Origin: Bdellovibrionales bacterium Ga0074139 | GTDB lineage: Bacteria > Bdellovibrionota > Bdellovibrionia > Bdellovibrionales > Bdellovibrionaceae | DNA: 64,000 nt | Direction of reading: 5' to 3' | NCBI GenBank assembly: GCA_001464795.1 | Contig: LNEB01000003.1 | Span: 124,001 to 188,000 of the forward strand | Shown here: positions 39,292-62,854 of the stretch, in pieces | Numbering within the stretch: the stretch's first letter is position 1 | Layout: each line of letters begins with the position of its first letter | Program-made: the position numbers and the translations under genes | Notes under the pieces: generated by a model | Told to the model about the DNA's origin: nothing | The model's database searches: none | What the model saw: the letters and a program-made list of their open reading frames with translations, nothing else

Positions 39292-39319
39292 TTATCGGCC
39301 TAAGTGTTGGAATTCTTAA
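39292..39319 (-). promoter_or_regulatory. FliA-like (sigma-28) promoter of fibre A
   Basis: Minus-strand -10 element GCCGATAA (complement of 39292-39299) with AAGA 16 bases before its CGAT core (part of TTAAGAATT). Only 11 bases separate the -10 element from the ATG at 39280, so the leader would be about 5 bases. Confidence 0.55.
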
Positions 39320-39356
39320 TCAACTCGAATTTGTGTTTCAAAGTGAGACAGTTTTA

Positions 39357-42300
39357 CTAAGGACTGAAAAGGACTGCGGCTGTTACTTCATCAAGGGCTG
39401 CAAAAACAGATTTTGTTCTTTCAGGGGTACCTATCGTTGTAAAAGCTCCGCCTGCATAAACCATCGAGCCTGAAACTGCGATTGCATTGACTGAATTGCT
39501 GGCACCAGGATTCCAGCCTGTGGCGGAACCCGTTGTCGCATCAAGGGCTGCGATTCGACTTCTTGATTGTCCACCGATGGTACCAAAAATACCACCGGCA
39601 TAAACCGTCGAGCCTGAAACTGCGATTGCATTGACCTGACCAGTTGCATTGGGATTCCATGATGTAGCGGATCCCGTTGTCACATCAAGGGCAGCGATTC
39701 GGTTTCTGGATTGCCCACCTATCGCTGTAAAAGTCCCGCCCGCATAAATATTAGCCCCTGAAACCACAATAGCAAGAATAGAGTTATTTGAATCAGGGTT
39801 CCATGTGGTTGCCAATCCCGTGGTACCATCTAAAGCGGCCAGCCGATTTCTTAATTGCCCACCGATGGTGGTAAAAGTTCCGCCTGCATAAACCGTCGAG
39901 CCTGAAACAGCAATCGCAGAAACCTCTGCGCTGGCATTGGGATTCCAGGCCGTGGCTAAGCCTGTGGTCACATCAAGGGCTGCGATTCGGTTTCGGGATT
40001 GTCCGCCAATGGTGGCAAAAGTTCCACCGGCATAAACTGTTGAGCCTGAAATTTCCAAAGCCTTAACTTCATTATTTGAATTGGGGTTCCAAGTGGTTGC
40101 AAGTCCTGAGGTTGCAGAAAGGGCGGCGATTCGGTTTCTTGATTGTCCACCGATGGTGGTAAAAGTTCCACCCACATAAACAGTTGTGCCTGAAACTTTT
40201 ATGACATTAACAAATCCATTTGCGGTGGGATTCCAGGAAGTGATGTTACCATTCGTATTATCTACGGCGGCAATTCCAATTCTGCTTTGACCACCGATGG
40301 AAGTAAGAAATCCTCCCACGTAAACATTGGATCCAGATACAGCAATCGCATTAAGTGCATTGTTCGCATCGGGGTTCCAGGCCGTTACTGTTCCTGTTGT
40401 TGTATCAATAGCAGCAGCTCTGCTTCTGGATTGCCCTCCGATGACGCTAAAAAGTCCAGCGGCATAAATTGTCGATCCAGATATTGCAAGTCCTCTGACT
40501 ACACTGTTGGCACCTGGGTTCCAAGTTGTTGCACTTCCTGTGGTAATACTAAGAGCAGCAATACTACTTCTAGATTGCCCACCGATGGTACTAAATGCGC
40601 CACCAGCGTAAACAGTTGTGCCTGAAATGAGTAAAGCACTGATATAATTACTTGCATTAGGATTCCAGGTTGTTGCAGCTCCAGTCGTATTGTTTAAAGC
40701 TGCAATAAAATTTCTAGATTGCCCACCGATAGTCATAAAAATACCACCGGCATAAACCGTCGAGCCTGAAACAGCAATCGCATAAACCTCTGCACTGGCA
40801 TTGGGATTCCACGATGTTGCAAGCCCTGTCGTGCTATTCAAGGCTGCAATTCGACTTCTGGTTTGCCCACCGATGATGCTAAAAAATCCACTGGCATAAA
40901 CCGTCGAGCCTGAAACAGCAATCGCAGAAACCTCTGCACTGGCATTGGGATTCCACGATGATGCAAGCCCCGTTGTGCTATTCAAGGCTGCAATTCGACT
41001 TCTGGTTTGCCCACCGATGGATGTAAACTCTCCGCCTGCATAAAGACTGGTGCCAGAGATCACTAAGGCTCGAACGATTCCATTCGCGTGTGGAGTCCAG
41101 CTGGTTACATTTCCAGTCGAATTATCTAAAGCAGCAAGCCTTGTTCTTAACTGGCCACCAATATTAATAAAATCTCCACCGGCATAAACATTTGTACCCG
41201 AAACAGCAAGGGCTCTAACAACTCCATCAGCGTTCGGATTCCATGCGGTTGCATCTCCTGTTGAAATTTCCAAGGCAGCGATTCGGTTTCGGGATTGTCC
41301 ACTAATTGTCGTAAAACTACCACCCACGTAAGCGTTGGATCCTGAAATAATAATGACGTTGACTAAACCATTAGGGTTGGGATTCCAGGTTGTGGCAGAA
41401 CCTGTGGTGCTATCTAGAGCTGCAATTCGAAGCCGAGGCTGTCCACCGATGTTTGTAAAACTACCACCCACATAAACAGTTGTGCCTGAAGCAATAAGTG
41501 TACTTACAGAGCCACCTGTCGCATTCGGATTCCAAGCCGTTGCACTCCCTGTCGTGCTATTAAGTGCTGCAATATTATTTCTTGGTTGCCCACCGATGGT
41601 GGTGAAGTCTCCTCCGATGTAAACAATTGTGGATTCAACTAAAATAGTGCGAACGAAGCCACCAGCGATGGGATTCCATGCCGTGGCTAAACCTGTTGTT
41701 GTGTCAAGGGCTGCAACATTGACTCTTGCTTGGCCACCAATGCTAGAAAAAGTTCCACCGGCATAAACATTTGAACCCGATACTGCTATAAAATTAACTG
41801 AGTTGTTCGAATCAGGGTTCCATGTCGTTGCAAGACCTGTCGTGAGACTTATTTCTGCCAGTCGGTTTCTAGATTGCCCTCCGATGTTTGTGAAATTTCC
41901 ACCCACATAAAGGTTAGATCCTGAAACAGCAAAAGAAAGCACAGAGCCACCTGTCGCATTCGGATTCCAAGTCGTCGCTAAGCCTGATGTTGTATCTAGG
42001 GCTGCTATATAACTTCTTGCTTGCCCACCAACAGTCGTAAAATTTCCACCCACATATAGGTTGGATCCAGAAATAAACATGGCATTGATAGCACCATTGG
42101 CATTGGGATTCCAAGTGGTCGCATTTCCTGTTGTGGCGTCTAGGGCTGCAATATTACTTCTTACTTGTCCGCCTATTAAAAAATAGGATCCACCAGCAAA
42201 AACAGTCGAGCCAGAAACTGCGATTGCATTAATTGATCCAATGACCCCTCCGCTAAAAGATGTGGGAACACCTGTAGTTGCATTTACGGCTGCAAGACTA

Positions 42301-43595
42301 TTTCTTACTTGTCCCCCGATGGCACTAAAGCTTCCACCCACATAAACTAAGGATCCCGATATAGTAAGAGCATTCACAACACCATCAGTGCCAGGGTTCC
42401 AAACAGCATCCACCGACTTGTCTGATAAAATTCGTGCTAAATTATTACGTGGCACTCCTCCAACACTGGTAAAACTTCCTCCAATGTACCAGCCACTGGC
42501 TCCATCAGAAATAATCACATTAACGGTTCCGTTCACTTTAGGAAAACTTACATCCGGAAGACCTGAAGTATTGTCTAAGGCCGCCATCCGTGAACCCCAA
42601 TAAATGGGATTTGTGGCAGTAAAACTTCCACCAATAAGAATATCACCCGTACTATTTTCATCGATGGCATTAATGGTTCCACTAGGATTTACAACCCAAG
42701 AAGTGACACTGCTTGTGGCAGTATCAATAGCTGCTAAATTAAATCGATCAAGTCCATTTGCTGTAGTAAAAGTTCCACCTACATATAGAATACCTGATGC
42801 AAGCTTAAGTGAGCTAACAGCTGCATCCATAGGAATATCAAAAGTGAGATCCAAAGTTCCATCAGCATTCAAATGCGCAAGTCTTTGTCTTGCAAATCCT
42901 TGCACAGTCGTAAAATTTCCTCCGACGTACCAACCACCCGAGCCGTCTGAAATAGCTGCGTTAATTATCCCATTAAAAGGAGAGTTCCCACCCTCCTGAA
43001 GTTGTGCAATTGGAAAGTTTGAGTTGGCTGTTGTTGTATCAAGAGGGGCACCGTAGGCATTGGCGTTAGTCAAAAAACTTCCACCGATGTAAAGCGTTCC
43101 TGAGTCCAAAGCTAAAGCACTTACGGAACCACTCGTGATCTTTCCATATTCTGGATCAAAGGCCATGTCTAAAGTGCCATCACTTAAAATTCTTGCGACT
43201 CTTTTTCTGACCACTGAACCGATAGTATTAAACTCTCCGCCAACATACCAACCTCCAGAGCCGTCTGAAATAACTGCATTCACAGTGCCTTTGATGTCTG
43301 CTGTGATGGGATCAAAAGTAGAAAGAACTTGACCATTAGCTGCTACAGGAACTCCAGACCCGGTACAAATTCCGACTTGGCTAAAAGCACCACCCAAAAC
43401 AACTCGGTTAACTGCAGGCACTGGTTCAATCGCACTGATGTAACTATTAAAACAAAGATTTCCAAAGCGGTTGATGGAATTTCCAAACATTGAGCTGGAT
43501 CCCCTATTGAAAGGTCCAGCACCCGGCATTTGTGCATGCAGTAAACAAACAGCAAAAAAAAGAAAAGAAATAAGGAAGTTACGCAAGACTGACAT
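39357..43595 (-). CDS. Exported multi-propeller protein, 28 repeats (delta-60/DUF5122-like)
   Basis: 1412 aa with signal peptide (about 1-22). Twenty-eight repeats, each with a strand pattern like VNAIAVSGS / VYAGGTF / GGQSRNRIAAL / WNPNA, can be counted (all glycine-glycine-x-Phe sites listed). From the second third on, each is exactly 48 aa (144 bases). Each repeat has four strands and looks like one propeller blade, so 28 is four seven-bladed propellers. The first repeat holds a Cys pair with the N-terminal LCFNSYISAI, a possible disulfide clasp. The ATG at 43595 is used; the previous TTG adds one residue. It is followed after 77 bases by fibre A in the same direction. Confidence 0.85.
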   Translation of the reverse strand: MSVLRNFLISFLFFAVCLLHAQMPGAGPFNRGSSSMFGNSINRFGNLCFNSYISAIEPVPAVNRVVLGGAFSQVGICTGSGVPVAANGQVLSTFDPITADIKGTVNAVISDGSGGWYVGGEFNTIGSVVRKRVARILSDGTLDMAFDPEYGKITSGSVSALALDSGTLYIGGSFLTNANAYGAPLDTTTANSNFPIAQLQEGGNSPFNGIINAAISDGSGGWYVGGNFTTVQGFARQRLAHLNADGTLDLTFDIPMDAAVSSLKLASGILYVGGTFTTANGLDRFNLAAIDTATSSVTSWVVNPSGTINAIDENSTGDILIGGSFTATNPIYWGSRMAALDNTSGLPDVSFPKVNGTVNVIISDGASGWYIGGSFTSVGGVPRNNLARILSDKSVDAVWNPGTDGVVNALTISGSLVYVGGSFSAIGGQVRNSLAAVNATTGVPTSFSGGVIGSINAIAVSGSTVFAGGSYFLIGGQVRSNIAALDATTGNATTWNPNANGAINAMFISGSNLYVGGNFTTVGGQARSYIAALDTTSGLATTWNPNATGGSVLSFAVSGSNLYVGGNFTNIGGQSRNRLAEISLTTGLATTWNPDSNNSVNFIAVSGSNVYAGGTFSSIGGQARVNVAALDTTTGLATAWNPIAGGFVRTILVESTIVYIGGDFTTIGGQPRNNIAALNSTTGSATAWNPNATGGSVSTLIASGTTVYVGGSFTNIGGQPRLRIAALDSTTGSATTWNPNPNGLVNVIIISGSNAYVGGSFTTISGQSRNRIAALEISTGDATAWNPNADGVVRALAVSGTNVYAGGDFINIGGQLRTRLAALDNSTGNVTSWTPHANGIVRALVISGTSLYAGGEFTSIGGQTRSRIAALNSTTGLASSWNPNASAEVSAIAVSGSTVYASGFFSIIGGQTRSRIAALNSTTGLATSWNPNASAEVYAIAVSGSTVYAGGIFMTIGGQSRNFIAALNNTTGAATTWNPNASNYISALLISGTTVYAGGAFSTIGGQSRSSIAALSITTGSATTWNPGANSVVRGLAISGSTIYAAGLFSVIGGQSRSRAAAIDTTTGTVTAWNPDANNALNAIAVSGSNVYVGGFLTSIGGQSRIGIAAVDNTNGNITSWNPTANGFVNVIKVSGTTVYVGGTFTTIGGQSRNRIAALSATSGLATTWNPNSNNEVKALEISGSTVYAGGTFATIGGQSRNRIAALDVTTGLATAWNPNASAEVSAIAVSGSTVYAGGTFTTIGGQLRNRLAALDGTTGLATTWNPDSNNSILAIVVSGANIYAGGTFTAIGGQSRNRIAALDVTTGSATSWNPNATGQVNAIAVSGSTVYAGGIFGTIGGQSRSRIAALDATTGSATGWNPGASNSVNAIAVSGSMVYAGGAFTTIGTPERTKSVFAALDEVTAAVLFSP
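39420..42400 (-). repeat. Strict 144-bp tandem coding repeats inside the propeller gene
   Basis: A core like CCACCGATGG recurs at 39571, 39715, 39859, 40003, 40147, 40291, 40435, 40579, 40723, 40867, 41011 and 41155, always 144 bases apart, i.e. exactly one 48-codon blade. Regular spacing looks array-like but is coding. Confidence 0.85.
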
Positions 43596-43602
43596 CAATC
43601 AT

Positions 43603-43630
43603 TTATCGGCTAAAATATCAGTTTTCTAAA
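43603..43630 (-). promoter_or_regulatory. FliA-like promoter of the 28-repeat propeller gene
   Basis: Minus-strand -10 element GCCGATAA (complement of 43603-43610) with TAGA 16 bases before its CGAT core (43625-43628 on the complement). Seven bases separate the -10 element from the ATG at 43595, so the RNA would begin at or next to the start codon. Confidence 0.6.
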
Positions 43631-43706
43631 CTTTTAATCTCAATATGAGTCAGGATAAAATTGACCCCACACCAACATATTGCAAGAATTAACTCAGAGG
43701 TTCTAT

Positions 43707-44405
43707 ATGCTAGAGAAAAAAAGTTTTGCAGCAGGTTTACTACTAGGCGCTTTCCTCATCTGGGCTCTCTTTGTCAGAGAACCTTTTTTAACTTCTTTGG
43801 AGGATAAAGGAAGTTATGCCTACGGCCAACAGCTCGGTAAAAATTTAAAAAAAGGGTTTGTCGAGTATAATTCCAGAATCGTAAGAATGGGAATGGATCA
43901 TGCCGCTCGTGATCATTCAAAATTAGATGAAAAAGAAAAACGTGAAGGCATCCAGCACTTGCAAGAAAAGTCCATGCCCAAACGAAAGGAAATGCTGGCT
44001 CTGCAGCCTCCTTCGGCACCTGATGCAAGTCTTGATAATGATGGATTTCAAAACACGCCTTTTCAATTTTCATTTATCAAATCAAGTTGGGCTGACTATG
44101 AAAAAAACCGTGGGCAAAGATTGCCGCCTGAACCCCTACCTGATTTTAATTTACAAAGTTCTAATCCCAAACAGGTTTTTAAATTTGCATTAGTGGTTTT
44201 TGATTCTAGCGGAGCTATTTTGGGTGAAAAAAATTACAACTTAAAATCAGCTGATTTGCCCGAAGCTTTAAAAATTGTTTTGAAAAATTTAAAAGCTAAA
44301 GAAACGTGGCTTTTGAAAATGAAGCCGCCTTTTAATGATAGCAGTCGATTTGATTGGCCTGTTAGAATGGAAGAAAATAAGATTATTCAGATCACTCTTC
44401 GTTAA
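43707..44405 (+). CDS. Degenerate Mip/FkpA-like FKBP protein, possible fibre chaperone
   Basis: 232 aa with a single N-terminal membrane anchor (about 8-25), start ATG 43707 with a CAGAGG ribosome site. The segment GSYAYGQQLGKNLKKGF, followed by a helix and LDEKEKREGIQ, matches the N-terminal dimerisation domain of FkpA/Mip FKBPs. The C-terminal part (LPEALKIVLKNLKAKETWLLKM, ending NKIIQITL) has the shape of an FKBP fold but lacks the Tyr-Gly and other active-site residues, so catalysis is doubtful. It is convergent with the largest fibre gene, sharing 4 bases at the stops, between the two fibre/propeller operons. A folding helper for the fibres is a reasonable inference. Confidence 0.55.
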   Translation: MLEKKSFAAGLLLGAFLIWALFVREPFLTSLEDKGSYAYGQQLGKNLKKGFVEYNSRIVRMGMDHAARDHSKLDEKEKREGIQHLQEKSMPKRKEMLALQPPSAPDASLDNDGFQNTPFQFSFIKSSWADYEKNRGQRLPPEPLPDFNLQSSNPKQVFKFALVVFDSSGAILGEKNYNLKSADLPEALKIVLKNLKAKETWLLKMKPPFNDSSRFDWPVRMEENKIIQITLR

Positions 44406-47400
44406 TTAAACCCCGTGCTCCAATTGATGTAGCACTCGATACTACCACCATCATCGATTACAGAAATCGTGTAAGTGGACCTAAATGTGGTGGGACCGTT
44501 AGCAGGATTAAAATAGCGATTCGTGCAACCAGTGAAATCATAGGTTCTTGAGGTCAAATCAGAAATGTACAAAGTATAAGTTCCGCCGCTTGCTAAATTC
44601 GTCAGTGCAATGGTGGGGCTTCCCGGAGCTTTGAGTAATTGCATATTACCTAAAGATAAATCCACTGTGGCACCGGTGGGGATAATATTTGTTGAGGCGA
44701 CCACTGCACCTTGCACCGCTAACCTTGTGTTAGAAGCAGGAGCCCGGCCCACTCCCACGCGGCCTGTTGAATCAATTTGCATTCTCTCAGTGCCTGCCGT
44801 TGAGAGACCTAAAGTACCAACTCCACTACTAAACAATCCTGTGTTTGTATCACCACTAAATGCATAACCTGGGGCACCAGCCGATCCACCAGCTGCAGGA
44901 AGTTCAGTCGCTCCACCACCACCAACAAGATCCACAAAAGCTCCACCGTTTTGTGAGACTTTAAATTTACCTTCAGCAGTACTAAAATAAATTCTTCCTT
45001 GCCCTGCAGGAGATACTGTGGGAGCCGCCATTCCCCGTTGAGTGATCGCACCGTTAATATCTAGAATAGTGTTGGGGCTTGTCGTTCCGATACCGACTCT
45101 GCCTGTGGAAAAATCACCATAAATAAGGGGAGTTCCCGAACCATTATTAATCCATAAAGAATTGTTTAATGTAGTACCTGCAGCAGGGCCTGATTCATAA
45201 CCGATAAACACATTTCCATAACTTCCCGCTGTTGCATTTCGACCTGCACCATGCCCAAGAGCCGCGTTGTTGTTACCTGTTGTTATATTAGAGAGTGCAC
45301 CTCGGCCGATGGCCGTATTTTCAGAACCAGAAATTGAAGAGGACATAGCGGCATCTCCAATTGCTGTATTATCATTACCGTCTACATTCTGAGCCATTAC
45401 ATACATTCCCATAGCCGTATTTGTAGAACCGGTCGTTGTTTGATTAAGCGACTCATGTCCAATGGCCACGTTTCTGATTCCTGTGGTTAAATTTTGCATT
45501 GAAAGAAATCCAATGGCTGTATTTTCTACGCCTGTGGCTAATGCACCCACATTTGGTCCTAAAAATATATTGGATGAAGACGCAACCGCATCAGTTAAAT
45601 CATCAAGCGAAGTCGCTCCACCACCGACAAGATCCGTGTAAGCTCCACCGTTTTGGGAAACTTTAAATTTACCTTCAGCAGTACTAAAATAAATTCTTCC
45701 TTGGCCTGCAGGAGAAACGGCAGGAGCTGCGATACCTCGGTAAGTGGAGGATCCGTTCAAGTCTAAAGCTGACGAAGGTGCTGTCACACCGGCCCCAATA
45801 CCGATGTTACCTGCAAAAAAGTTACTATCAGATGCGCCGTTTTGGTAAATACCCCAACGATTGGTTCCTTGCAGGTCATCAATATAAAGACCTCTGGCAT
45901 CAGTCAACGTACCACCTGTTACAACAACATCAGCGTGATAAGCGTTTGCTGTTGTCGTGGCTCCTGCAGCATTTGTAACTCGACTTCTAGTACCAGATAA
46001 AAGAGTTGCAGAAGTCGCTGAAAAATCAGAGACCACTTCATTTAAGGATCCTACTCCGTTCGCTACACTGCCAGCGTACAAACCCACACGATTTTCTGAA
46101 GCATAAACATTGTTCCAAGTGGAGTTATTGTTTAAAAAAGCTTCATTCAAGATAATGGATAAGGTTCCGGTATTGCTGACTCCGTTAAATAAAGCAGAAT
46201 TTCGAATATTAGCATATTGACCAGTCGATACATCGAAGGGATTTCTATCAACCACAAAGCTTGATAACAATCTGTTAGGAGGAGTGACGCTATTTCCGAA
46301 TGCCACTTGCCCATCGGTTCCAATGGCAATTTTCGTATCACCATTAACTTCCAAATTAAGTCCAAAATTACTATTTGTACCAATAGTCATCGCAGCAGCT
46401 GTGGTGTTACCACCCAATAAAACATCTCCGCTGCCACCGCCGGCACCTACAAGATCCACGTAAGCTCCGCCATTTTGTGAAACTTTAAATTTATTCTCTG
46501 CAGTGCTAAAATAAATTCTTCCTTGGCCTGCAGGAGACACTGAGGGAGCTGCCATTCCACGCATCGTTGCAGCACCACTTAAATCAAGTTTAGAAGAGGG
46601 GTTCACATTTCCGATTCCAAGATTACTCGAGTAAATAATAAAGGCGTCGGCCTGTGTGATAGCAACAGGAGCCGCAGAGTATCCCCACGCAAAGGATCGA
46701 TCAGCTGTAGCTGATAATTGCATGTTAGCTCCACCCGCCAAAGAATGGTCACCAGCTGCAGTATTGGAAGCTCCACCAACTACCGTGGACTCGAGGCCAC
46801 TTGCAATATTATCAATTCCACCAATAACCGAAGCCCTGTTACCACTAGCTGAATTGCCAAGACCACCTGAAACCACAGCGCTATAATTAATTGCACTATT
46901 GCCTGAACCACCACCAACAGTCGCATATTCAAAATTTGCTATATTATAAATTCCACCACCGATGGTGCTATACGTTGCTGATGCTTCATTGGCAGCACCA
47001 CCTGAGATGGTCGAGGCAAAGCCATTTGCCAAAACATCATTTCCAAAGGCAACTGATCTTTCCCCAATATTTATATCATCCCATTCAGTGCCTGAAACTA
47101 TACCAGCACGAATTGCACTTTTTTCTGGAATCCACATCAAGCGTGTTCCAGCACCAGAAGCAGGGGTTACACCCGTATCACCATTAATAAGCAAAGAGCC
47201 ATCATTCGTGATCGTCATTCGTGTAGTGCTGTTAGTTTCGAAATTAAGTCCAAAATTATCATTTGTTCCAATTGTCATTCCACCGGCACCAAAGGAATTT
47301 CCACCTTGTAGAATATCTCCACTACTTCCGCCCGCTCCCACAAGATCAACGTAAGCTCCGCCGTTTTCAGAAATTTTAAATTTATTTTCTGCGGTGCTAA

Positions 47401-50400
47401 AATAAATTCTTCCTTGGCCTGCAGGAGAAACAGCAGGGGCTGCTCGACCACGAAGATTAAAAGCTCCGTCAATATCAAGAGCTTTTGTTAAGCCTGTGGT
47501 CATATCGCCATAAATCAGATTACCAATATTTAATTGAGAATTGCCTGTCGCTGTTGGTGCATCCACATTGTATCCGATAATAATATTCTCACTACCGGAT
47601 GTAAGATTCGTCGCCGCATCTCGACCAATAACTGTATTGTTATTACCGGTGTGACCACCAACCACTCGAAGTGCGCGAGAACCGATGGCTGTGTTACCTC
47701 CACCGCCCCCACTTCCAAATTCTAATGCAAGAGTTCCGATGGCTGTGTTCACGTTACTTGTTAAAGAAAAACCGGCATTGACTCCGACCGCGACATTCTC
47801 CCATTGAGAGTTCACACCTTGTAAAGCGTTGGCACCAATTGCTGTATTGGCATAACCAGTTGTTACATTAAATAGTGCGCCTTCTCCAACAACTGTAGTT
47901 GTTCCATCACCATTAGGACCATGACCCACTCTCATCCCATCAATTAAAATGTCTGTGCCATCTTCTTCAAGAATAGAATTCGCCAGTCCTGTGGCTGAAG
48001 ACCACTTAGGAATAGAATTAGTAGTACCAGTGCCTGATACTCCACCGCTACCCACAAGGTCCACGTAAGCTCCACCGTTTTCAGAAACTCTGAATTTGTT
48101 GGATGTGGAGTCAAAATAAATTCTTCCTTGATCAACAGGAGCATCAGCGGGTGCAGAAGCTAAACCTCTGATTGTTGTAGCTCCTAAAACATCAAGCGCT
48201 GTGTTCGGATCTATGACTCCAATACCTACACCACTTGACATGATTCGCATTCTTTCTTGCGATTGACCATTGCCATTTCCACCAGAAGATAAAAGTAAGG
48301 GACCATTGCGGGCTCCAATATTCAATCCCAATGTGGAATTGGTATTAACAACTTCTGCGGGTCTAAAATCTAAAGGCATTTCATCTCTGATTTCGACTCT
48401 TTCGCCAGCTGAGGTTCCAAAACTTGCGATGACATCGCCGTTACCAAGATTACTTGTTAATTGAACATCTAATTTTGCATTGGGAGCTGTCGTCCCGATA
48501 CCCACATTTCCAGTGGCACCGATTCTCATGCTCTCGCTTCCGTTATTAGAAAAGCCAATCACGTTGATTGCAGGTGAGAAAAGACCAGTGCTGCTACTAG
48601 AATTTGCAGACAATTCGTAAGCAGGTGAAGCGGCTGATCCCGCAAAAACTCGTTGTGGTCGGTAGTAATCAAAAGTTCCGTTTGTGAATTGAGCCGCATC
48701 GGATCCGCCTAAAGAAATTAAAAATCCATCGGGATCAATACGGTAAAATCCTGTATCGGGATCATTAGTAAAGGAAATCGAAGGTGATGAAGCTGAACCA
48801 TCGTCAGCTAAAAATGTACCACTACTGCCACCCGCACCCACAAGATCAACAAAGGCTCCGCCATTTTCGGAAACTCTAAATTTATTAGACGTAGAATCAA
48901 AATAAATTTTACCTGAATCCACAGCTGACAAAGATGGAGCAGCCGCAATTCCACGAATGTTCACATCTCCGTTGACATCAAAAGTTGAGAGAGCCGTAGC
49001 ATCAGGGGAATTAATAGAAACTCGGTCAGCTGCAAAATTACCGTAAATCAATGGAGAGCCTGGTCCATTATTAATCCATAAAGTATTACTTAAAACAGTG
49101 TTAGAAGAAGGACCTGATTGTACGCCAAGAAAAATATTACTTGAGCTAGCACCTGTGGCAGTGGCTCCTGCATTCATACCAATCGCAGTGTTGCTAGAGC
49201 CAGTTGTTGTAAGAACCAAAGCTGAACGCCCCACAGCTGTGTTCTGACTTGTGCTTGTAGCTGAAAGCAGAGCCCCATCACCCAAAGCCGTGTTGAAGCT
49301 TCCTGTGGTAAGAGAAGCTGTCGAGTAGGCACCAATTGATGTATTATAGTCGCCAACACTCAGGTTTTGTAAAGACACTCGACCAAAAGCTGTGTTGCCA
49401 GTGCCGTTTGTTAAGTCTAGTAGGGACTGAATTCCCACACCTGTATTATTTCCATTAGTCGCCAGAGCACCAGTTCCAGCACCCAAGAAAAAATTATTTA
49501 ATACCGTATCCACTTCTGCATCACTGAGTCCATCTATGTTAGTGGCTCCACTACCGCCACCTACAAGATCCACATAGGCTCCGCCGTTTTCGGAAATTTT
49601 AAATTTTCCATCTGCGGTACTAAAATAAATTCGACCTTGGCCTGCAGGAGATACTGCTTGCACGCCCAAGCCTCGCTGAGTAATGACACCATTAATATCG
49701 AGTGCCGTATTGGGATTCATGACACCGATTCCAACATTGCCTGCAAAGTAGTTTCTATCCGAGGCACCCACTTGATAAACACCCCAAGAATTCGTTCCTG
49801 CAAGATCCTCAATAAAAAGACCATAGGCATTAGTAATTGAGCCCGTAGACGTATTAACAACATTTGTATAGGTTCCGATCGCAGTATCGATGGTAGAAGC
49901 CGTATTCATATTGCTGATCACATTTCGAGTACCGATTGCATTTGTGATAGCTCCGTTACCATTTATACCTCTGACGTAGTTGTCAGTGCCAACAGCTTCA
50001 GCGAGGTTTCCAGTTGAACCGTGAGATATTTGATTATAAACACCAATAATATTATTCTTGTTGCCACTTCCATCAGTTGCAATATCATTAAATATGTTTG
50101 TGAGAGTACCTGTATTGTTAGTTCCAGCGTTGTAGAATGCATCATTTCTAAAGTTAGTGAAATCGCCGGTCTCTGAGAATGGATTTGTTGACAGTTGGAG
50201 TTTTGCATTAGGCGAAGTCGTCCCAATACCCACATTTCCAGTATTATCAATTGTCATTCTAGGTTGATTATCGGTCTCAAATGTTAATGAAAAATTATCA
50301 TTCGTTCCCAAAGTTGCAGCACCTGGAAAAGTATTTCCGTTATTCACAAAACCTGAGCCAGCGCCAGTTTCATCGGTCCCGCAACCGGCAATGCCCGCTC

Positions 50401-51874: not shown

Positions 51875-51882
51875 TAGATAAC

Positions 51883-51908
51883 TTATCGGTTGGTCTTCAT
51901 TTTCTCTA
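51883..51908 (-). promoter_or_regulatory. FliA-like promoter of fibre B
   Basis: Minus-strand -10 element ACCGATAA (complement of 51883-51890) with TAGA 16 bases before its CGAT core (51905-51908). Eight bases separate it from the GTG at 51874. Confidence 0.6.
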
Positions 51909-52014
51909 AAATGTCTAAACACTTGATTGTTGGTCTGGTTGTTTTGTTTTGAGTCGTGGTTTGTAAACAAAATTAACAAAAAAATGAAATATTATGTTTC
52001 ACTACGGATAGCCT

Positions 52015-52043: not shown

Positions 52044-52051
52044 TTCGAGGT

Positions 52052-53218: not shown

Positions 53219-53224
53219 AAATGA

Positions 53225-53650: not shown

Positions 53651-53654
53651 AATT

Positions 53655-55811
53655 CTATCTAGCCAATCCAGTCACTAAATCAACTTCTGTTATTCCTGAG
53701 CGAATTTTATCATTCACCCTAGAAAAACCCCCACCGTAAAGCCAAAATCGATTACCAATTTGCAAGGCTCCGTAAGCGGTAATATCCAAAGCCGGATCCC
53801 ACGCCGTTAAGACTCCTGTACTATCAGTTCTGGCAACGGCTCTGGGAACAGAATTAACTGTGGAATAACTTCCTGTGAAAATAACGTCACCGTTGGTTTG
53901 CTTCAAAAATCTGTACGTACTTCCGTTCGCACTTGGATTCCAAGTTGATACGGTAGCTGAGGGTATATCAAGACTAGCCACATTCACACGTGTGGCACCA
54001 CCCACCAAGTTAAAGGCCCCACCGATAAATAGCTCGTCGTTACTAAGTCCAAAGCCTACAATGTAGTTATTCACACTAACGGCCCAACTGGATAAAGCTC
54101 CTGTGGAATCGACCCGAGCCAGCTTGGGTCTTGAGACTCCACCCACATTATTAAATGTGCCACCCAAGAAAAAATCATTTCCGTAACGAATGATGGTATA
54201 AATCAGGGCATCTGCATTAGGATTCCAACTTTGCAAAGTTCCATCGGCAGAAAACGCGGCCGCACGATTTCTTACAGTTCCACCGGTACTTGTTGTAAAC
54301 GCACCCACCGCATAAACAATTCCTGATGGATCAATTTCAATAAAGCTGACATAACTGTTCACAAGAGGACGCCAAGAGGTTGCACCGGATTTTGTGAATG
54401 CCGCCAAATGCGTGGCCGCCACTCCACCACTTGAGGTGAAAGCTCCACCCGCATAAACTGTATCAGTTGCTGGATTGTAGGCCAGACTCCAAACTAAACT
54501 GTTCCCGGGACCATCCATATTGCCATCGAAACTCATCAGATTTCCATTGAAGTCCATGGCAGCGATGTACTTTCGCTTCACACCTTTAAAAAAAGTCATG
54601 TAGCCACCTAAAAAAATATTTCCTAATGAATTTTGAGCATAGGCACGAACAGTGGAACCAGGTTCCGGCGCCCAAGCCAGCGGAGTATTAGAGGCTGGAT
54701 CCAGTTTGGCCGCTGAAACTCGGGCAACTCCTGAAGTGGTGAAATTATCAAAATCACCGCCTACAAAAAGATTGGCTCCATCAAAGTGAACTGCGAAAAC
54801 TGTACCATTAGGTTGAGGGCTCCAGCTATTCAGTGCACCAGTGGTCATATTCACAGAAGCTAAATTCGTGCGACTTGTTCCACCGACCAATTGAAAGTAT
54901 CCGCCCATCCAAATTTGCGTGCCATCAGTTGCCATTCCACGCACCCAATCACTGGGATTCGGATTCCATGCTGTGGCTGTCGCCGGTGAAGACAGCGTGA
55001 TGGCGGCTGCATAATTTCTAGCAGTGGGGCCTACGACAGAGGTGAATTGTCCACCCACATAAATATCCGTTGCAGAAAAAACAAAGGTACGAACGCTGCT
55101 GTTAACACTGGGAATCCAAGTCGCATCTAAAACTCCAGAGGTATTGACCCTAGCTAATCTTCCTGTAGTGGTTCCAGAGATCATCGTAAAACCTCCACCT
55201 AAGTAAATGGAGGATCCGTTGTAATCGATATAATTAACAATATTATTAGGATTTGGATTAAACGCTTGAAGCACACCTGCTGTATCAACGGCTGCCATAA
55301 AGTTACGACCCGATCCACCCATGCTTGTGAACCAGCCTCCGATATAAATCACACTTCCCACTTTAACCATAGACATCACGGTGTCATTGGCATCAGGATT
55401 CCAAGACGTTAAATTTCCACTGCTATCAATATGAGCTAAACGATTTCGAGGTGTACCACCCACAAGTGTAAAGTCTCCGCCGATGTACCATCCATCACTA
55501 CCATCAGGGATCGCAGTAAAAACAGTACCACTGATAGCTGGAAAATTAGAAAATGTATCAACAGCCGTTGTGGCATTCACAACTTTCCCGTTACCAAAAC
55601 ATTGCCCTGCACGGTTAAAATTTCCTCCAACAAACATAGTATTTGAAGAAGTGACGGCATGAAGAACTTGATAGTCAAAACAAACGGGGGCCGGTACCAA
55701 GACTGAACCCCAGTTAGAACTGGAGGTTCTTGCATTGGCGAATTGAAGATTAGAAATTAACAGGCCTATCAGCAGTAAGAATTTACTGAAAACCGGCAAC
55801 CCACGTGACAT
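53655..55811 (-). CDS. Exported multi-propeller protein, 14 repeats
   Basis: 718 aa with signal peptide (about 1-27). Fourteen repeats of the VYAGGAF-type strand and following SWNPN-like segment can be counted, most clearly from FVGGNF to WLYGGGF. As each repeat has the four-strand look of a blade, 14 repeats equal two seven-bladed propellers. The first repeats carry a Cys pair (VCFDYQVLHAV and RAGQC), placed like those of the 28-repeat protein. The ATG at 55811 lies within the last 29 bases of fibre C, with a GGGAAG ribosome site, so translation is coupled to the fibre. Same operon ends with the 141-aa membrane protein. Confidence 0.85.
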   Translation of the reverse strand: MSRGLPVFSKFLLLIGLLISNLQFANARTSSSNWGSVLVPAPVCFDYQVLHAVTSSNTMFVGGNFNRAGQCFGNGKVVNATTAVDTFSNFPAISGTVFTAIPDGSDGWYIGGDFTLVGGTPRNRLAHIDSSGNLTSWNPDANDTVMSMVKVGSVIYIGGWFTSMGGSGRNFMAAVDTAGVLQAFNPNPNNIVNYIDYNGSSIYLGGGFTMISGTTTGRLARVNTSGVLDATWIPSVNSSVRTFVFSATDIYVGGQFTSVVGPTARNYAAAITLSSPATATAWNPNPSDWVRGMATDGTQIWMGGYFQLVGGTSRTNLASVNMTTGALNSWSPQPNGTVFAVHFDGANLFVGGDFDNFTTSGVARVSAAKLDPASNTPLAWAPEPGSTVRAYAQNSLGNIFLGGYMTFFKGVKRKYIAAMDFNGNLMSFDGNMDGPGNSLVWSLAYNPATDTVYAGGAFTSSGGVAATHLAAFTKSGATSWRPLVNSYVSFIEIDPSGIVYAVGAFTTSTGGTVRNRAAAFSADGTLQSWNPNADALIYTIIRYGNDFFLGGTFNNVGGVSRPKLARVDSTGALSSWAVSVNNYIVGFGLSNDELFIGGAFNLVGGATRVNVASLDIPSATVSTWNPSANGSTYRFLKQTNGDVIFTGSYSTVNSVPRAVARTDSTGVLTAWDPALDITAYGALQIGNRFWLYGGGFSRVNDKIRSGITEVDLVTGLAR

Positions 55812-58800
55812 AAATTTTGCTTCCCATTTTTGTAAAGTGATAAACGGTTTCAGTGCCGCTGACAGTTAAACCATTGGCTGGACTAAACAAAAAAGTGTCT
55901 GAACTGTGGGTAAAAGTACAAGTTCCTTGCGTCGTACCTTGTACTGCTAAAGTGTAACTTCCACCATCACGCATATTTTGTAAAGTCATGGCTCCGCAAC
56001 TTGCAGACGTGTATTGCATATTTCCATTGTCAAAATTAAATGTGGTTGATGCTGCATTATCAACTACAGGGGAAACAATTTGTCCACCCACCTCAAGATT
56101 ATTTGTCATCGACACTTGTCCAGCGGCATCGATCGTCATTCTTGGCGTGTTAGAAGTTTCAAAATTAAATGCAAAAGCATCATTAGTTCCGATGGTGACA
56201 GCACTACCCGTAGCGTTTCCGTTATTTAAAATATCACCTGAACCGCCACCACCACCAACAAGATCAACATAAGCTGCACCATTTTCAGAGATACGGAATT
56301 TATTCGATGTAGAATCAAAATAAATTCTTCCTTGGCCTGCTGGTGAGACGCCAGGTGATGCAATTCCACGTTGCGAGAATGCACCGTTCACGTCCAGAAC
56401 AGTATTTGGATTAGTTATTCCAATACCGACATTACCAATCGAGTCAACTCTCATTCGCTCTATTGCATCTGTTGCGAAAAGAATAGGATCCGCACCGTGA
56501 TTGACGATGACCATTCCGTCTGAAGCAGGAGCCGTGTAAATGAAACCACGATTTTGATAGATTCCCGAAAGTCCTGTAGCGCCGGCTCCTCCATGTCCGT
56601 AAGCCGCAATTCTATCCCCACCGATGTCAGCTACAAATAGCGATTCTGCTGCAGTGCCAGGATTAGTGTTTAAAACTCTCATTATAACATCGTCATCTTT
56701 TGCATGACTCATAACAAACTCATCGCCTGGATTTGTCGTCCCGATACCGACATTGCCATTAGGTAAAATTGTCATTCTAGGTGTATTATTTGTTTCAAAA
56801 TTCAGTGCAAAATTATCATTCGTTCCCAAAGTCGCAGCACCAGCAAAAGAATTTCCGTTATTTAAAATATCACCTGAACCACCCGCGCCTACAAGATCAA
56901 CGTAAGCTCCGCCATTTTCGGAAACTCTGAATTTGTTGGATGTGGAATCAAAATAAATTCTTCCTTGATCAGCCGGTGACACAGCAGGAGCTGCCATTTC
57001 ACGCTGGGTGAAAGCTCCGTTTAAATCAAAAGCTGTTGATGGCGATGTTGTACCGATACCAATATTTCCATTTGATAAATTTCCGTAAATTGCATTTCCA
57101 ATATTGAGTTGATTAGAACCTGTAGCCGCGACGACATCAATGTCATAACCAATGATTATATTATTACTACCCGTTGTTAAATTATCACCAGCTCCATAAC
57201 CAACACCAATATTATTACTTCCAGTGGCAAGATTCAGTGCTCTTGCACCGAGTGCCGTGTTGTTGTTTCCGTCAGCATTGTTAGCTAAACTATCAGAGCC
57301 AAGTGCTGCATTGTTTTGTCCAGTGGTATTTGCAATAGAGGCATTACTTCCAATCGCAGTATTAAAACTTGCATTAGTTGCTGTTAAAAGTGCGTTATTT
57401 CCTAGTGCCGTGTTAGCTGTTCCAGTTACTAAAAGTCGAAGAGCGGTATTACCAACAGCTGTATTCGCATCACCAGAAGCTAAAGTTCGAAGACTTGCTT
57501 GTCCAACGGCCGTGTTACCGATGCCGGTCGTATTTAAATTCAATGCGTTGACTCCGACAGCTGTGTTGCTAGCACCAGTTGTGTTAGCATCTAAGGCATC
57601 AGAGCCAATCGCTGTGTTCGCTGATCCAGTGGTGTTATTTAATAGTGCATCTCGACCGACAGCTGTGTTGAAACTACCCGTCGAGTTTGTCATCAGAGTT
57701 TGATTACCAACGGCCACGTTGCTTGCACCTGACGTTATATTCATCATTGAGCTATGTCCGATGGCTGTATTTCGAACACCCACGTTTGATGCAGCAGTTG
57801 TGCTACCTCTGAGTGCATAAGCACCTAAAGCAGTGCTTTGAGTCTGTTGAAAAGATGCGGTGCTGTCTGCGTAGCGCATGGCTTGAAAACCGACGGCTGT
57901 GGATTCACTTCTACCCACATTAGAATTCAAAGACATGTAACCAATAGCCGTATTACCAACACCATTAACATTTGTTTGAAATGACAAGGGACCGATGGCT
58001 AAATTTTGCACTCCCGTTGAGCTTGAACCCACTCCGCTGCCTAGGAAGAAATTAAAACTTGTTGTGTAATCTGCAACTCCATCACTTAAACCATCAATCG
58101 ATGATGATCCTGATGATGTACAAACCGCAAAACCTGAGGCATCAAAACCTAAAACTTGACCAACACCGCAAGTGAATGAAGAAGCAACACCAGAGCCGTT
58201 AGCAACAATGGCTTGATTAGCATTAAAACCACTCATCGAAGTTAAAATATCAGAATAAGCTGCACCATTTTCAGAGATACGAAATTTATTAGATGTGGAA
58301 TCAAAATAAATTCTGCCTTGGCCTACAGGTGAAACAGCAGGTGCTGCGATTCCACGTTGCGAGAATGCGCCGTTAATATCCAAAATAGTTCCTGGAGCTG
58401 TTGTTCCAATTCCCAAATTTCCATCAGCTGTTAATGTCATTCTTGGAGTACCGTTGGTGCTTGGATTTCCATAAACTAAGGCCGTCTGACTTTTAAAAGT
58501 CAGATCACCCATTTGATAACCAATAAAGGATCCATCAACTGAATTGTCAGTACTCAATGATAACATAGAATCACTGGAATTAATGGCCATCCAAGGTGAA
58601 CTGGCTCCAGAGGTAAAACTTTGCACATTAAAAGTGGCTTGCGAATCGTAGCCTGCAGCATCGACTCCCACACCTGCACGACCTGCCACAGTTAATAAAG
58701 TATTGGGAGAAGCTGTTCCAATTCCCACATTGCCGTTATTTAAAATTGTCATTCGTGAACTGTTATTAGTTTCTAAATTAAGTGCAAAGTTATCGTTGGT

Positions 58801-61800
58801 ACCAATGGTCACAGCACTACCCGTGGTATTTCCGTTATTTAAAATATCACCCGAACCACCACCTGAGCTTACAAGATCAACGTAAGCTCCACCGTTTTCA
58901 GAAACTCTAAATTTATTAGATGTAGAATCAAAATAAATCCGTCCTTGGTCAGTGGCTGACACAGCAGGGGCTGAAGCTATTCCACGCTGATCAATGGCTG
59001 ATGCAATGGACACTGGCGCTGTGGCATCTGTAGTATAAATAGAAAATTTATTCGTTCCTTCGATAGTTCCTGTATAAAGACCGTAGGCATTATTAATTAC
59101 ACCAGCACCTGGTTTTAATATTTCAGCCGCAACTCCGAAGGCATTATTCACAGTGCCCGCACCGGTGTGATTGATTCGATTAAATGAATTTCTGACAACA
59201 TCAACTGTCGCAGAACCTGAACCAATGGTCATATCATTCCAACTGGTTGTCACAACATTATTATTAGCAATTAAATCTAACGTTAAGCCATTTCTTGAAC
59301 CTGTAACTAAGGCAGTAGAATTAGACGGATTATTCATAAACGTTGAAGTGTTTGATGTAATCGCCTCGCCAGAGTTTGCATCAAATGGATTTGTATAAAC
59401 CTCAAATTTGTGGTTTGGATTACCAGTTCCAATTCCCACATTACCGTTAGCACTGATTCGCATTCGTTCGCTATTGTTCGTAGAAAATCCAATCGTGTTC
59501 GTAGCTGGAGCAAACATTCCCGTGCCCACACTGGAATTAGCTCCTAATCCATAAGAAGGATCCGTAGCTGATCCAGGGTAAACTCGCTGTGATCTGTAAT
59601 AATCAAAAACACCATTATTAAATTGAGCGGCATCAGAGCCACCGATGGTCATCATTAAGACATCATCAGCACCGCTGTAAAAACCCGTATTAGGATCATT
59701 AGTAAATGAATATGACGGTGCAAGGTCAGATCCATCATCAGCTAAATAAGTACCACCACTTCCACCACCCGCCCCCACAAGGTCCACGTAAGCTCCGCCG
59801 TTTTCAGAGACTCTAAATTTATTAGATGTGGAATCAAAATATATTCTTCCTTGATCAGCGGGTGATACTGCAGGAGCTGCAATTTCACGCATGGTAACGG
59901 CACCGTTAATATCCAAAGTAGTTGAAGGATTTGTCATTCCACCAAGACCCACTCGGCGATTGGTGAGATCTCCAAAAATGGTGGGATCTCCAGAGGCATT
60001 ATGAATGTATAACCTGTTAGACTCAGTTGCTGGAAATGTCACGGGTCCCGCAGAATGACCTAAGTAAATATTGGAATCTCCAGTTTGAAGACTTTCACCA
60101 GCACTTACTCCCAAGGCAGTATTATTTCCACCCTCAGCTCTGTACAAAGACAACCTTCCAATTGCAGTGTTTCCTGAGGATGACTGAAGAAAAGTGAGAG
60201 TTGCACTTCCAAGCGCCGTATTTCCTGTGCCATTGGTTACATTCACAAGACTACCACTTCCAATAGCTGTATTTGCATTACCAGTTGTTAAGCTTAAAAG
60301 TGCTTCCGGCCCAACTGCGGTATTTGTGCCACCAGTTGTTACAGACTGCAGTGCTTGATTACCAACCGCCGTGTTATCTACGCCAGTTGTAAGAGACTGC
60401 ATAACTTGACTTCCGACACCAGTATTTCGAATTGCTGCACTGCCGTTTCCTGCACCTTGACCTAAGTATAAACTATTATTTGTATAATTTGCAGCTGCAT
60501 CACTTAATGCATCAATTGTTGAGGCACCGCCCGCGCCTACAAGATCCACGTAAGCGCCGCCGTTTTCTGAGACTCTGAATTTGTTCGATGTAGAATCAAA
60601 ATAAATTCTTCCTTGGTCCGTGGGTGATACGGCAGGAGTTGCCATTTCACGAACATTCACTGCACCGTTCACATCTAAAGTGGTCGATGGATTTGTCATT
60701 CCACCAAGACCCACGCGGCGGTTAGTAAGATCTCCAAAAATTGTAGGATTACCAGCTGCATTATGAATATAAAGTTGATTAGAGATAACTCCCGGAGCTG
60801 ATGGGCCCGATAGATAGCCTAAAAATATATTTCCATCACTCAATCCTGTTGCATTATCTCCGCTAGCTGTACCGATGGCTGTGTTGTTTCCACCATTTCC
60901 TAAACTAGAAAGTGATGCACGCCCCAAAGCCACGTTAGCAGATCCACTGACTGAGTTCACAAGTGAGAGTTCACCCACGGCTACGTTATCACCACCGTCA
61001 ATATTTTGATACATGCTTGCATTTCCAACAGCTGTGTTTCGACTTCCTGTTGTAGACCTATTCAATGCTTCTCGACCAAAAGCTGCGTTATTGCCTCCGG
61101 TGGTCAGGCTTTGTAAACTAAGAGCACCGAAACCAGCATTATTTGCACCAGTTGTAACAGCTTGCAGTGACAAAGCACCAACGCTTGTATTTTGAGTGCC
61201 TGTCGTTGTTGTAGCCCCCACACCAGAGCCTAAATACATATTATAAGTTGTTGCATAATCGGTCGCCGCATCAGTTAAACCATCTATTGTTGTAGCACCC
61301 GCTCCGCCATCATCCGTCCCGCAACCCGCAATTCCTGCTCCATCAAATTTAATAATCTGATTCAGTCCGCAGTTCAGTGATGTCAATGCAGTGCCTGTGG
61401 CATTCGCAACGATCACATCTCCAGCACCAAGAGCTGTGCTATTTTGAGGAATTTGATTGATACCAGTGCCTACGTTTACATTTAATGTCGCAACTCCACT
61501 GGTCGCACCACCCGTAAGACCTGTGCCTGCTACAACTTCTGTGATGTCTCCGCCCGCTCCAGCAGCCGACCACGAAAGAACTCCCGCACCATCTGTTGTA
61601 AGCACTTCACCTGCATCACCATCATTAATTGGTAAAGTCAGGGCATAGTTTGCAACAATATCTGTCGGAGTTCTGATAGTAACCGTGTTCGTGTCGTTAT
61701 CATTCAAAACTAAATTTCTTCCAGAAAAATTGGTAGCAGCCACAGAATTAATGTTCGTGATGTTTTGATTTCCCATATTAATGGGACCCGTCATTGTGCC

Positions 61801-62820
61801 ACCAGCCAAAGGAAGTTTTGATGAATCATTCACCGCCGTGTTCACAACACCAGTCACTCGACCTTTCGCATCTGTTGTGATCACAGGAATTTGTGAGCTA
61901 GAGCCGTAAGTTCCAGCGGCCCCCACATCGCCTAAAGATAAAACTCCAGCTGCTAATCTTAGACCACTGGTCGCTTCATCGGTTAAACCTTGGACAACAC
62001 CTTTAGCCGCATACGAGGCATCACCAACAGCAGAACCCACGGCATCCGCTGAAGGCACCCAGTTTGTTCCATCAAATTTTAAAACTTGGCCAGTGGTAGG
62101 AGCTGTTGCAACGACATTTGTGCCACGGATTCGTGAAACGACTGTCGCGTTCGAAGGACCTGTGACATCACCTGCAAAGTTGTCTGATGGTCGTAAATAA
62201 TTCGTCGCCGTACCATTGACCAATCCAAGCAGCGTGTCCACTTGGGTGTTGGATAAAACAGTTTGTGAAGGGTAACTTGCAATTTTTAAAAACTCATCGG
62301 TATTGCGGTTACCTAATTTTTCGGCTTGATAAGCCAGTGGCACATAATTCACTTTCATCGAAGGCACATCTTCCCAAACTCCAGAATTAGCGACTTCACT
62401 AAAAGACATTTCCACAATTCGGCCATGCTGAGAAAGTGCATTGTAACTTGAGCCACTGGCGCAAGATAGGCCTGTGTAATTCACGCCGTTCGCAAAAACT
62501 TCTGCTAACTGAAAAGGTAAAGTTGTTACAGAGTTAGTAATCGAAGTTTGTGTTCGAACTGTAGGAACTGCCAATGATTGATCACCCACAGTCAATGTAA
62601 ACACTCCATTATCAGCGGGTGCCATGGGACGAATTTGAGTTTCTTCCCATAGTAAACAATTTTCTACTCCAGGAGATTTAATACGGATTCGAAACTGAGC
62701 GGTCGGTGCCACCAAAGGATTATCAGTGGAATCCACGATCTTTCCATGCAAAGTAATGCCAGAACTAGCATAAGTCCATTCGGACATAAAAAGGAGGTTA
62801 ATAACTAAAAATATTTTCAC
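55783..62820 (-). CDS. Mosaic trimeric fibre protein C (adhesin-like)
   Basis: 2345 aa from a GTG at 62820. An in-frame stop two codons upstream and the signal peptide fix this start; only a few bases separate it from the promoter. The N-terminal domain (GITLHGKIVDSTDNPLV onward) is close to that of fibre B. Then the common block, then a long shaft with six QGRIYFDSTSNKF cassettes and many NTAVGxxAL-type repeats. The C-terminal tip (GGSYTLAVQGTTQG, LFSPANGLTV) is a third version of the domain ending fibres A and B. The stop overlaps the start of the 14-repeat propeller by 29 bases. Adhesion in a trimeric fibre is the most likely role. Confidence 0.82.
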   Translation of the reverse strand: MKIFLVINLLFMSEWTYASSGITLHGKIVDSTDNPLVAPTAQFRIRIKSPGVENCLLWEETQIRPMAPADNGVFTLTVGDQSLAVPTVRTQTSITNSVTTLPFQLAEVFANGVNYTGLSCASGSSYNALSQHGRIVEMSFSEVANSGVWEDVPSMKVNYVPLAYQAEKLGNRNTDEFLKIASYPSQTVLSNTQVDTLLGLVNGTATNYLRPSDNFAGDVTGPSNATVVSRIRGTNVVATAPTTGQVLKFDGTNWVPSADAVGSAVGDASYAAKGVVQGLTDEATSGLRLAAGVLSLGDVGAAGTYGSSSQIPVITTDAKGRVTGVVNTAVNDSSKLPLAGGTMTGPINMGNQNITNINSVAATNFSGRNLVLNDNDTNTVTIRTPTDIVANYALTLPINDGDAGEVLTTDGAGVLSWSAAGAGGDITEVVAGTGLTGGATSGVATLNVNVGTGINQIPQNSTALGAGDVIVANATGTALTSLNCGLNQIIKFDGAGIAGCGTDDGGAGATTIDGLTDAATDYATTYNMYLGSGVGATTTTGTQNTSVGALSLQAVTTGANNAGFGALSLQSLTTGGNNAAFGREALNRSTTGSRNTAVGNASMYQNIDGGDNVAVGELSLVNSVSGSANVALGRASLSSLGNGGNNTAIGTASGDNATGLSDGNIFLGYLSGPSAPGVISNQLYIHNAAGNPTIFGDLTNRRVGLGGMTNPSTTLDVNGAVNVREMATPAVSPTDQGRIYFDSTSNKFRVSENGGAYVDLVGAGGASTIDALSDAAANYTNNSLYLGQGAGNGSAAIRNTGVGSQVMQSLTTGVDNTAVGNQALQSVTTGGTNTAVGPEALLSLTTGNANTAIGSGSLVNVTNGTGNTALGSATLTFLQSSSGNTAIGRLSLYRAEGGNNTALGVSAGESLQTGDSNIYLGHSAGPVTFPATESNRLYIHNASGDPTIFGDLTNRRVGLGGMTNPSTTLDINGAVTMREIAAPAVSPADQGRIYFDSTSNKFRVSENGGAYVDLVGAGGGSGGTYLADDGSDLAPSYSFTNDPNTGFYSGADDVLMMTIGGSDAAQFNNGVFDYYRSQRVYPGSATDPSYGLGANSSVGTGMFAPATNTIGFSTNNSERMRISANGNVGIGTGNPNHKFEVYTNPFDANSGEAITSNTSTFMNNPSNSTALVTGSRNGLTLDLIANNNVVTTSWNDMTIGSGSATVDVVRNSFNRINHTGAGTVNNAFGVAAEILKPGAGVINNAYGLYTGTIEGTNKFSIYTTDATAPVSIASAIDQRGIASAPAVSATDQGRIYFDSTSNKFRVSENGGAYVDLVSSGGGSGDILNNGNTTGSAVTIGTNDNFALNLETNNSSRMTILNNGNVGIGTASPNTLLTVAGRAGVGVDAAGYDSQATFNVQSFTSGASSPWMAINSSDSMLSLSTDNSVDGSFIGYQMGDLTFKSQTALVYGNPSTNGTPRMTLTADGNLGIGTTAPGTILDINGAFSQRGIAAPAVSPVGQGRIYFDSTSNKFRISENGAAYSDILTSMSGFNANQAIVANGSGVASSFTCGVGQVLGFDASGFAVCTSSGSSSIDGLSDGVADYTTSFNFFLGSGVGSSSTGVQNLAIGPLSFQTNVNGVGNTAIGYMSLNSNVGRSESTAVGFQAMRYADSTASFQQTQSTALGAYALRGSTTAASNVGVRNTAIGHSSMMNITSGASNVAVGNQTLMTNSTGSFNTAVGRDALLNNTTGSANTAIGSDALDANTTGASNTAVGVNALNLNTTGIGNTAVGQASLRTLASGDANTAVGNTALRLLVTGTANTALGNNALLTATNASFNTAIGSNASIANTTGQNNAALGSDSLANNADGNNNTALGARALNLATGSNNIGVGYGAGDNLTTGSNNIIIGYDIDVVAATGSNQLNIGNAIYGNLSNGNIGIGTTSPSTAFDLNGAFTQREMAAPAVSPADQGRIYFDSTSNKFRVSENGGAYVDLVGAGGSGDILNNGNSFAGAATLGTNDNFALNFETNNTPRMTILPNGNVGIGTTNPGDEFVMSHAKDDDVIMRVLNTNPGTAAESLFVADIGGDRIAAYGHGGAGATGLSGIYQNRGFIYTAPASDGMVIVNHGADPILFATDAIERMRVDSIGNVGIGITNPNTVLDVNGAFSQRGIASPGVSPAGQGRIYFDSTSNKFRISENGAAYVDLVGGGGGSGDILNNGNATGSAVTIGTNDAFAFNFETSNTPRMTIDAAGQVSMTNNLEVGGQIVSPVVDNAASTTFNFDNGNMQYTSASCGAMTLQNMRDGGSYTLAVQGTTQGTCTFTHSSDTFLFSPANGLTVSGTETVYHFTKMGSKIYVTWVAGFQ
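56258..60625 (-). repeat. Six recurring cassette copies in fibre C
   Basis: Copies coding for QGRIYFDSTSNKFR.SENG.AY lie at about 56258-56345, 56891-56985, 58250-58330, 58871-58950, 59771-59860 and 60537-60625. The domain between copies differs. Positions approximate. Confidence 0.7.
61310..62310 (-). repeat. Shared fibre block, copy in fibre C
   Basis: Third copy of the block found at 38100-38870 and 50390-51360. The part 61310-61500 is shared with fibre B only, the rest with both A and B. Confidence 0.7.
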
Positions 62821-62828
62821 TCTTTAAT

Positions 62829-62854
62829 TTATCGGTATGAGTTCGATTGGACTA
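62829..62854 (-). promoter_or_regulatory. FliA-like promoter of fibre C
   Basis: Minus-strand -10 element ACCGATAA (complement of 62829-62836) with TAGT 16 bases before its CGAT core (62851-62854). Eight bases separate it from the GTG at 62820. The region 62821-62929 holds nothing else I can see. Confidence 0.6.

Follow-up and report, generated by a model that had tools for sequence, protein, structure and literature searches.

The genes for a large secreted beta-propeller and for three fibre proteins (fibres A, B and C) are each preceded by a site of the common form TTWAG-N16-CCGATAA, which ends only 7 to 11 nt before the start codon. Judging from the sequence, we consider it very likely that these four sites are Bdellovibrio-type FliA (sigma-28) promoters that would produce leaderless fibre and propeller mRNAs in the attack phase. 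Measuring on the minus strand how far before the start codon CCGATAA ends (the gap) confirmed the existence of all four sites and reproduced the values of 7, 11, 8 and 8 nt given in an earlier, sequence-only reading of this DNA. The sites lie within the window (the whole 64,000-nt stretch of DNA that was analysed) as follows:

43603..43630, minus strand: FliA-like promoter of the 1412-aa beta-propeller; TTTAG 43630-43626, N16, CCGATAA 43609-43603, 7 nt to the ATG at 43595
39292..39319, minus strand: FliA-like promoter of fibre A; TTAAG 39319-39315, N16, CCGATAA 39298-39292, 11 nt to the ATG at 39280
51883..51910, minus strand: FliA-like promoter of fibre B; TTTAG 51910-51906, N16, CCGATAA 51889-51883, 8 nt to the GTG at 51874
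62829..62856, minus strand: FliA-like promoter of fibre C; TTTAG 62856-62852, N16, CCGATAA 62835-62829, 8 nt to the GTG at 62820

The genes concerned, and two propeller genes that overlap fibre genes, are:

39357..43595, minus strand: CDS, secreted beta-propeller of 1412 aa (Pfam DUF5122, Rax2), a lone unit with its own promoter
36821..39280, minus strand: CDS, fibre A, 819 aa, signal-peptide-like start
44402..51874, minus strand: CDS, fibre B, 2490 aa, GTG start
55783..62820, minus strand: CDS, fibre C, 2345 aa, GTG start
35286..36845, minus strand: CDS, FG-GAP propeller, 519 aa, overlapping the end of fibre A, without a FliA site of its own
53655..55811, minus strand: CDS, DUF5122 propeller, 718 aa, overlapping the end of fibre C, without a FliA site of its own

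As had been claimed, two of the four lead genes (fibres B and C) start with GTG and a Shine-Dalgarno (SD)-like word is absent before all four (0/4). The N-terminus is signal-peptide-like at each of the four predicted starts. The FG-GAP propeller is probably cotranscribed with fibre A, and the 718-aa DUF5122 propeller probably with fibre C. Within 35286-64000, overlapping beta-propeller genes (FG-GAP or DUF5122) come after fibres, an order that suggests fibre-propeller pairs; the window edge at 64000 cuts a propeller gene whose start coincides with the stop codon of a further fibre gene (fibre D) and which is operon-internal. Fibre A has no Pfam family and no PDB match.

The fibre A site matches TTAAG-N16-CCGATA exactly, and the propeller, fibre B and fibre C sites differ from it by one mismatch (TTTAG). 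This sequence is the FliA consensus of B. bacteriovorus, assigned to 92 of 140 attack-phase promoters in the passages considered of PMC3627812, which report it for FliA (Bd3318) and name surface genes among the targets; FliA control of attack-phase genes is thus already known. Those passages do not mention leader length or leaderless starts, unlike the layout described here. FliA is reported to be essential in Bdellovibrio and to drive the TAD pilus operon (PMC5430801, in part), and the genome analysed here encodes a FliA (TIGR02479, 278.5 bits versus a cut-off of 189.6). Furthermore, we aligned 38 promoters (33 plus five loci from named genomes) that had been selected for CCGA near the start only and not for the -35, and observed T 0.76, T 0.53, A 0.66, A 0.74 and G 0.53 at -21 to -17. 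As TTAAG-N16 was not selected for in this alignment, its recovery is an independent sign of FliA. Together, consensus match, FliA gene and recovered TTAAG box argue from sequence for the proposed FliA-type promoters. Classical sigma-28 flagellin promoters share the -10 of the fibres, and the genome has eight flagellin-domain matches; at two of its own flagellin-domain loci (L049 and L055), however, the element is CCGATC or TCGATAA, with a TTAAG-like box judged by eye to lie at N15 rather than N16, and unlike the fibres its flagellins have leaders and mostly GGAGG-type SD words.

Scanning both strands of the window for WAGW-N16-CGATAA produced exactly four matches, all on the minus strand (39292-39317, 43603-43628, 51883-51908 and 62829-62854), compared to a shuffle mean of 0.38, with four matches reached in 1 of 100 shuffles. 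The bare CCGATAA is common, as had been noted (14 matches in the window, shuffle mean 5.1). We rejected raw genome-wide enrichment as evidence: TWAG-N17-CGATAA occurs 14 times in the whole genome versus 23 for the reversed control, and TTAAG-N16-CCGATA with at most one mismatch 72 versus 81 times. Since such bare counts stay at background, the evidence rests on position. Among the 40 window genes examined, CCGA[T/C] lies 5-13 nt before the start of the four named genes and of none of the other 36, so that the description of four hits out of four as beyond chance stands by position and not by genome-wide count. By a simple rule, 15 of the 40 window genes have an SD-like word and 21 of the 36 other genes lack one; as a missing SD is common in this organism, its lack is weak evidence on its own. 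These counts also raise the possibility that SD-independent initiation is common in this organism.

To follow the layout among other fibres, we used an alignment of the fibre N-terminus, which matched 32 of the 39 genomes listed, including the source genome (2.9 Mb in 15 contigs). Upstream DNA of 60 N-terminal matches and of the source genome's own fibres A-F was analysed with a fixed start rule; L111 and L122 had no start and were dropped, leaving 64 homologues, 58 of them from relatives. CCGA[T/C] is present at 5-13 nt in 30 of the 64, at exactly 7 nt in 16 of these 30, compared to 18 of 1714 control windows further upstream (1%). The motif was found at 26 of 38 homologues without a nearby upstream ORF end versus 4 of 26 with one (Fisher 3e-5), and an SD occurs in none of the 30 motif-bearing homologues versus 18 of the 34 motif-less ones (Fisher 6e-7), 12 of which have no nearby upstream ORF. 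Absence of the element from homologous genes in related genomes had been named as an outcome that would speak against the reading; relatives alone have it at 24 of 58 homologues, which did not refute the reading. Sixteen more homologues, mainly lower-scoring matches or members of other families of the order, include three with the element and 13 without, indicating that it thins out with distance and that many homologues lack it. In named genomes, a first scan found no loci and a second returned eight, of which L330 was set aside for too little upstream DNA; of the remaining seven, five carry CCGA[T/C] at 7-8 nt, L333 has TCGATAA and L331 lacks the element, where L328 counts only after its start was re-chosen by eye and the starts of L332 and L333 were likewise chosen by eye.

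In the source genome, the ten matches to the fibre N-terminus were assigned to eight fibre genes, as two of them fall in a second part of a gene that has another match. Three fibres identified later, D, E and F, carry CCGATAA, CCGATTA and CCGATCA at gaps of 8, 7 and 7 nt; the -35 of fibre D is poor, with 2 of 5 letters matching at N16. For fibres G and H, arithmetic on coordinates gives an overlap with the end of an upstream lipoprotein gene, and it is this gene whose start follows CCGATAA by 5 or 6 nt:

L041 (G000:C3:240555) and L067 (G000:C9:33343): lipoprotein genes leading the fibre G and H units, CCGATAA 5 and 6 nt before ATG

The layout is thereby present in 9 of 9 transcription units that hold a fibre gene (eight in all) or the lone propeller of the window. 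A fibre-specific layout was rejected, as other genes have the same one: it is a wider class. In the source genome, CCGATAA sites followed by an ATG within 24 nt were sorted (among the 100 of 153 matches listed, most of them fetched and a few loci added): of 92 sites, 60 lack an ORF of 70 aa, nine are overlapped by other ORFs and 23 have candidate lead genes. This count covers ATG only and leaves out genes that start with GTG, fibres B and C among them. The gap is 5-8 nt in 16 of these 23, 11 nt in one and 13-23 nt in six; 16 of 23 at 5-8 nt corresponds to a binomial probability of 1.4e-8, or 1.1e-7 without fibres A and D and the propeller. SD-like words occur in 0 of 17 lead genes with gaps of at most 11 nt and in 4 of 6 above. 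The permuted word CGACTAA gave 24 sites and a single lead, at 19 nt and with an SD.

Among the first 30 loci of a relative, G007, leads lie at 7, 7, 7, 8 and 20 nt, one of those at 7 nt with an SD-like word, and in B. bacteriovorus kdesi (G039) at 1, 6, 7, 7, 7, 8, 22 and 23 nt, with an SD-like word at the gap-1 lead and at one gap-7 lead. There thus appear to be two types of FliA unit, one predicted to be leaderless and one with a leader and an SD. A preference for a gap of 7 nt in the raw histogram was discarded, as in G007 gaps of 5, 7, 8 and 17 nt account for 13, 11, 10 and 10 of 100 listed matches; the 5-8 nt peak emerges only once CCGATAA sites are sorted by ORF and overlap. Whether the spacing is caused by the TAA of CCGATAA acting as an upstream stop codon was checked by excluding sites under other ORFs.

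In Campylobacter jejuni, sigma-28 sites (CGATwt) are described 6-8 nt upstream of the transcription start in the part of PMC3847290 considered. By that spacing, a gap of 7-8 nt would bring the transcription start to the start codon or right next to it. We hypothesise that FliA-RNA polymerase binds TTWAG-N16-CCGATAA and starts transcription some 6-8 nt farther downstream, at the start codon or a few nucleotides from it, when FliA is active in the motile attack phase. From the -10 spacing, the fibre and propeller mRNAs are probably leaderless, fibre A perhaps having a leader of 3-5 nt, and would be translated without an SD, two of them from GTG, the ribosome presumably binding the 5' AUG or GUG directly. 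Dispensing with an SD might offer some advantage to non-growing swimmers. The near-leaderless mRNAs that had been proposed gain support from the 5-8 nt gap kept in paralogues, in other genes and in other genera. Counting against SD-less translation here, reporter expression in B. bacteriovorus is strongly lower without an RBS, as given in part of PMC12622784, in constructs not known to be leaderless. The leaderless mRNAs of C. jejuni in the same portion of PMC3847290 resemble the fibres in having the -10 close to the start codon and no SD, but they have sigma-70 sites and all start with ATG, whereas the sites here are of sigma-28 type and the start is sometimes GTG.

It is unlikely, in our estimation, that the FliA promoters are real and transcription nevertheless starts farther away or reads through from upstream, yielding mRNAs with leaders and SD-less translation. 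The transcription starts are predicted positions, the fibre A gap is 11 nt and in-frame TTG/GTG codons lie upstream of fibre B, all of which would suit such mRNAs; against them stand the clustering of gaps at 5-8 nt, the 16 of 30 homologues at exactly 7 nt and the fibre B upstream extension, which is not signal-like. Through-transcripts would be SD-less too, because no SD would fit between the -10 and the start codon. We give very little weight to non-functional sites, whether copied between paralogues by duplication or due to chance: fibres B and C have paralogous N-termini with similar starts and CCGATAA is common, but the -35/-10 spacer sequences differ in all four sites, the propeller is unrelated to the fibres, and the layout is kept in other genera as well as at lipoprotein genes that are unrelated. 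Equally improbable are true starts farther downstream with an SD, making the promoter adjacency only apparent, for the start codons are predictions but such starts would forfeit the signal-peptide-like sequence that begins at residue 1.

The layout holds at the fibres and propeller as the sequence-only reading described it; what that reading missed, besides the wider class, is a second signal inside the coding start. ACGT occurs in the first 36 nt of 17 of 30 motif-bearing fibres versus 5 of 34 motif-less ones, and is the strongest of 256 tetramers compared to deeper coding windows (p 1.4e-6 before correction). Synonymous-codon shuffles of the motif-bearing set (observed 19/33, mean 5.4) reached the observed value in 0 of 2000 cases, as they did without G007 (observed 10/23, 0/2000), compared to 104 of 2000 for motif-less fibres (observed 7/47, mean 3.7). 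The six loci from named genomes added in this comparison include L333 (TCGATAA). Across eight genomes, CCGATAA-N5-9-ATG-N3-24-ACGT has 39 matches versus 8 for the reversed pattern and 27 with TGCA in place of ACGT, the excess being mostly in G007 (14 versus 5) and G039 (11 versus 5) and none being seen in G014 (4 versus 5), G011 (3 versus 6) or G024 (0 versus 2). Loci were given to 30 of the ACGT matches, and 24 of these open an ORF of at least 70 aa, 19 of them at gap 7, compared to 9 of 26 in the TGCA control, two of the nine carrying ACGT as well. In 19 of the 24, ACGT has a G two bases ahead of it, and the resulting GNACGT lies 6-26 nt after the start codon, with every reading frame represented (10/8/6). 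These frames and the 0 of 2000 synonymous shuffles led us to reject conserved signal peptides as a protein-level cause.

Genes with GNACGT are fibres and, judged by their N-termini, mostly signal-bearing surface lipoproteins; among ten compared with Pfam, one is assigned to DUF285 and one is RCC1-like, two exceed the cut-off of a bacterial Ig-like domain, another matches this family with a score below it, and five have no family. Leaderless-type fibre and lipoprotein genes of G007, G039, G011, G014 and G035 contain it, and paralogy within G007 makes these genes non-independent. In the source genome, ACGT is found in fibres D and F (L060 and L063) and the lipoprotein L400, and in none of the four window genes within the first 36 nt. 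We see an even chance that the prey-contact surface proteins of predatory Bdellovibrionales are under a dedicated two-part code, made up of a leaderless FliA promoter (CCGATAA-N7-ATG) and, 6-26 nt into the gene, GNACGT in whichever frame. The latter could serve an attack-phase regulator, as an operator or as an RNA site, in the joint control of fibres and large surface lipoproteins.

The fibres resemble the MAT fibres of PMC10769870 (in the passages considered) in being long secreted predator fibres, but have no S74 domain by Pfam; fibre C matches the solved Bd3182 MAT chain 8ojn over 35 aa (E 1.5e-6). The words FliA and promoter are absent from the main text of that paper. Titles and abstracts on Bdellovibrio leaderless mRNAs, sigma28, TSS/5' UTR and MAT fibres, a scope with subscription journals mostly outside it, do not report the layout, and conserved leaderless placement at adhesin genes together with GNACGT appears to be undescribed in the literature searched. 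If true, predator adhesin genes would be directly under the motility sigma factor and would form a class of leaderless sigma-28 mRNAs, GTG starts included. The leaderless reading predicts exact 5' ends that can be compared with existing B. bacteriovorus TSS data, and the rule CCGATAA-N7-ATG followed by GNACGT could list prey-contact proteins in uncultured relatives. Separately, a small gene near flagellin in the source genome (L050, starting MNIKG) has CCGATA 6-7 nt before its ATG, as does L344 of B. bacteriovorus kdesi, which has a similar start.
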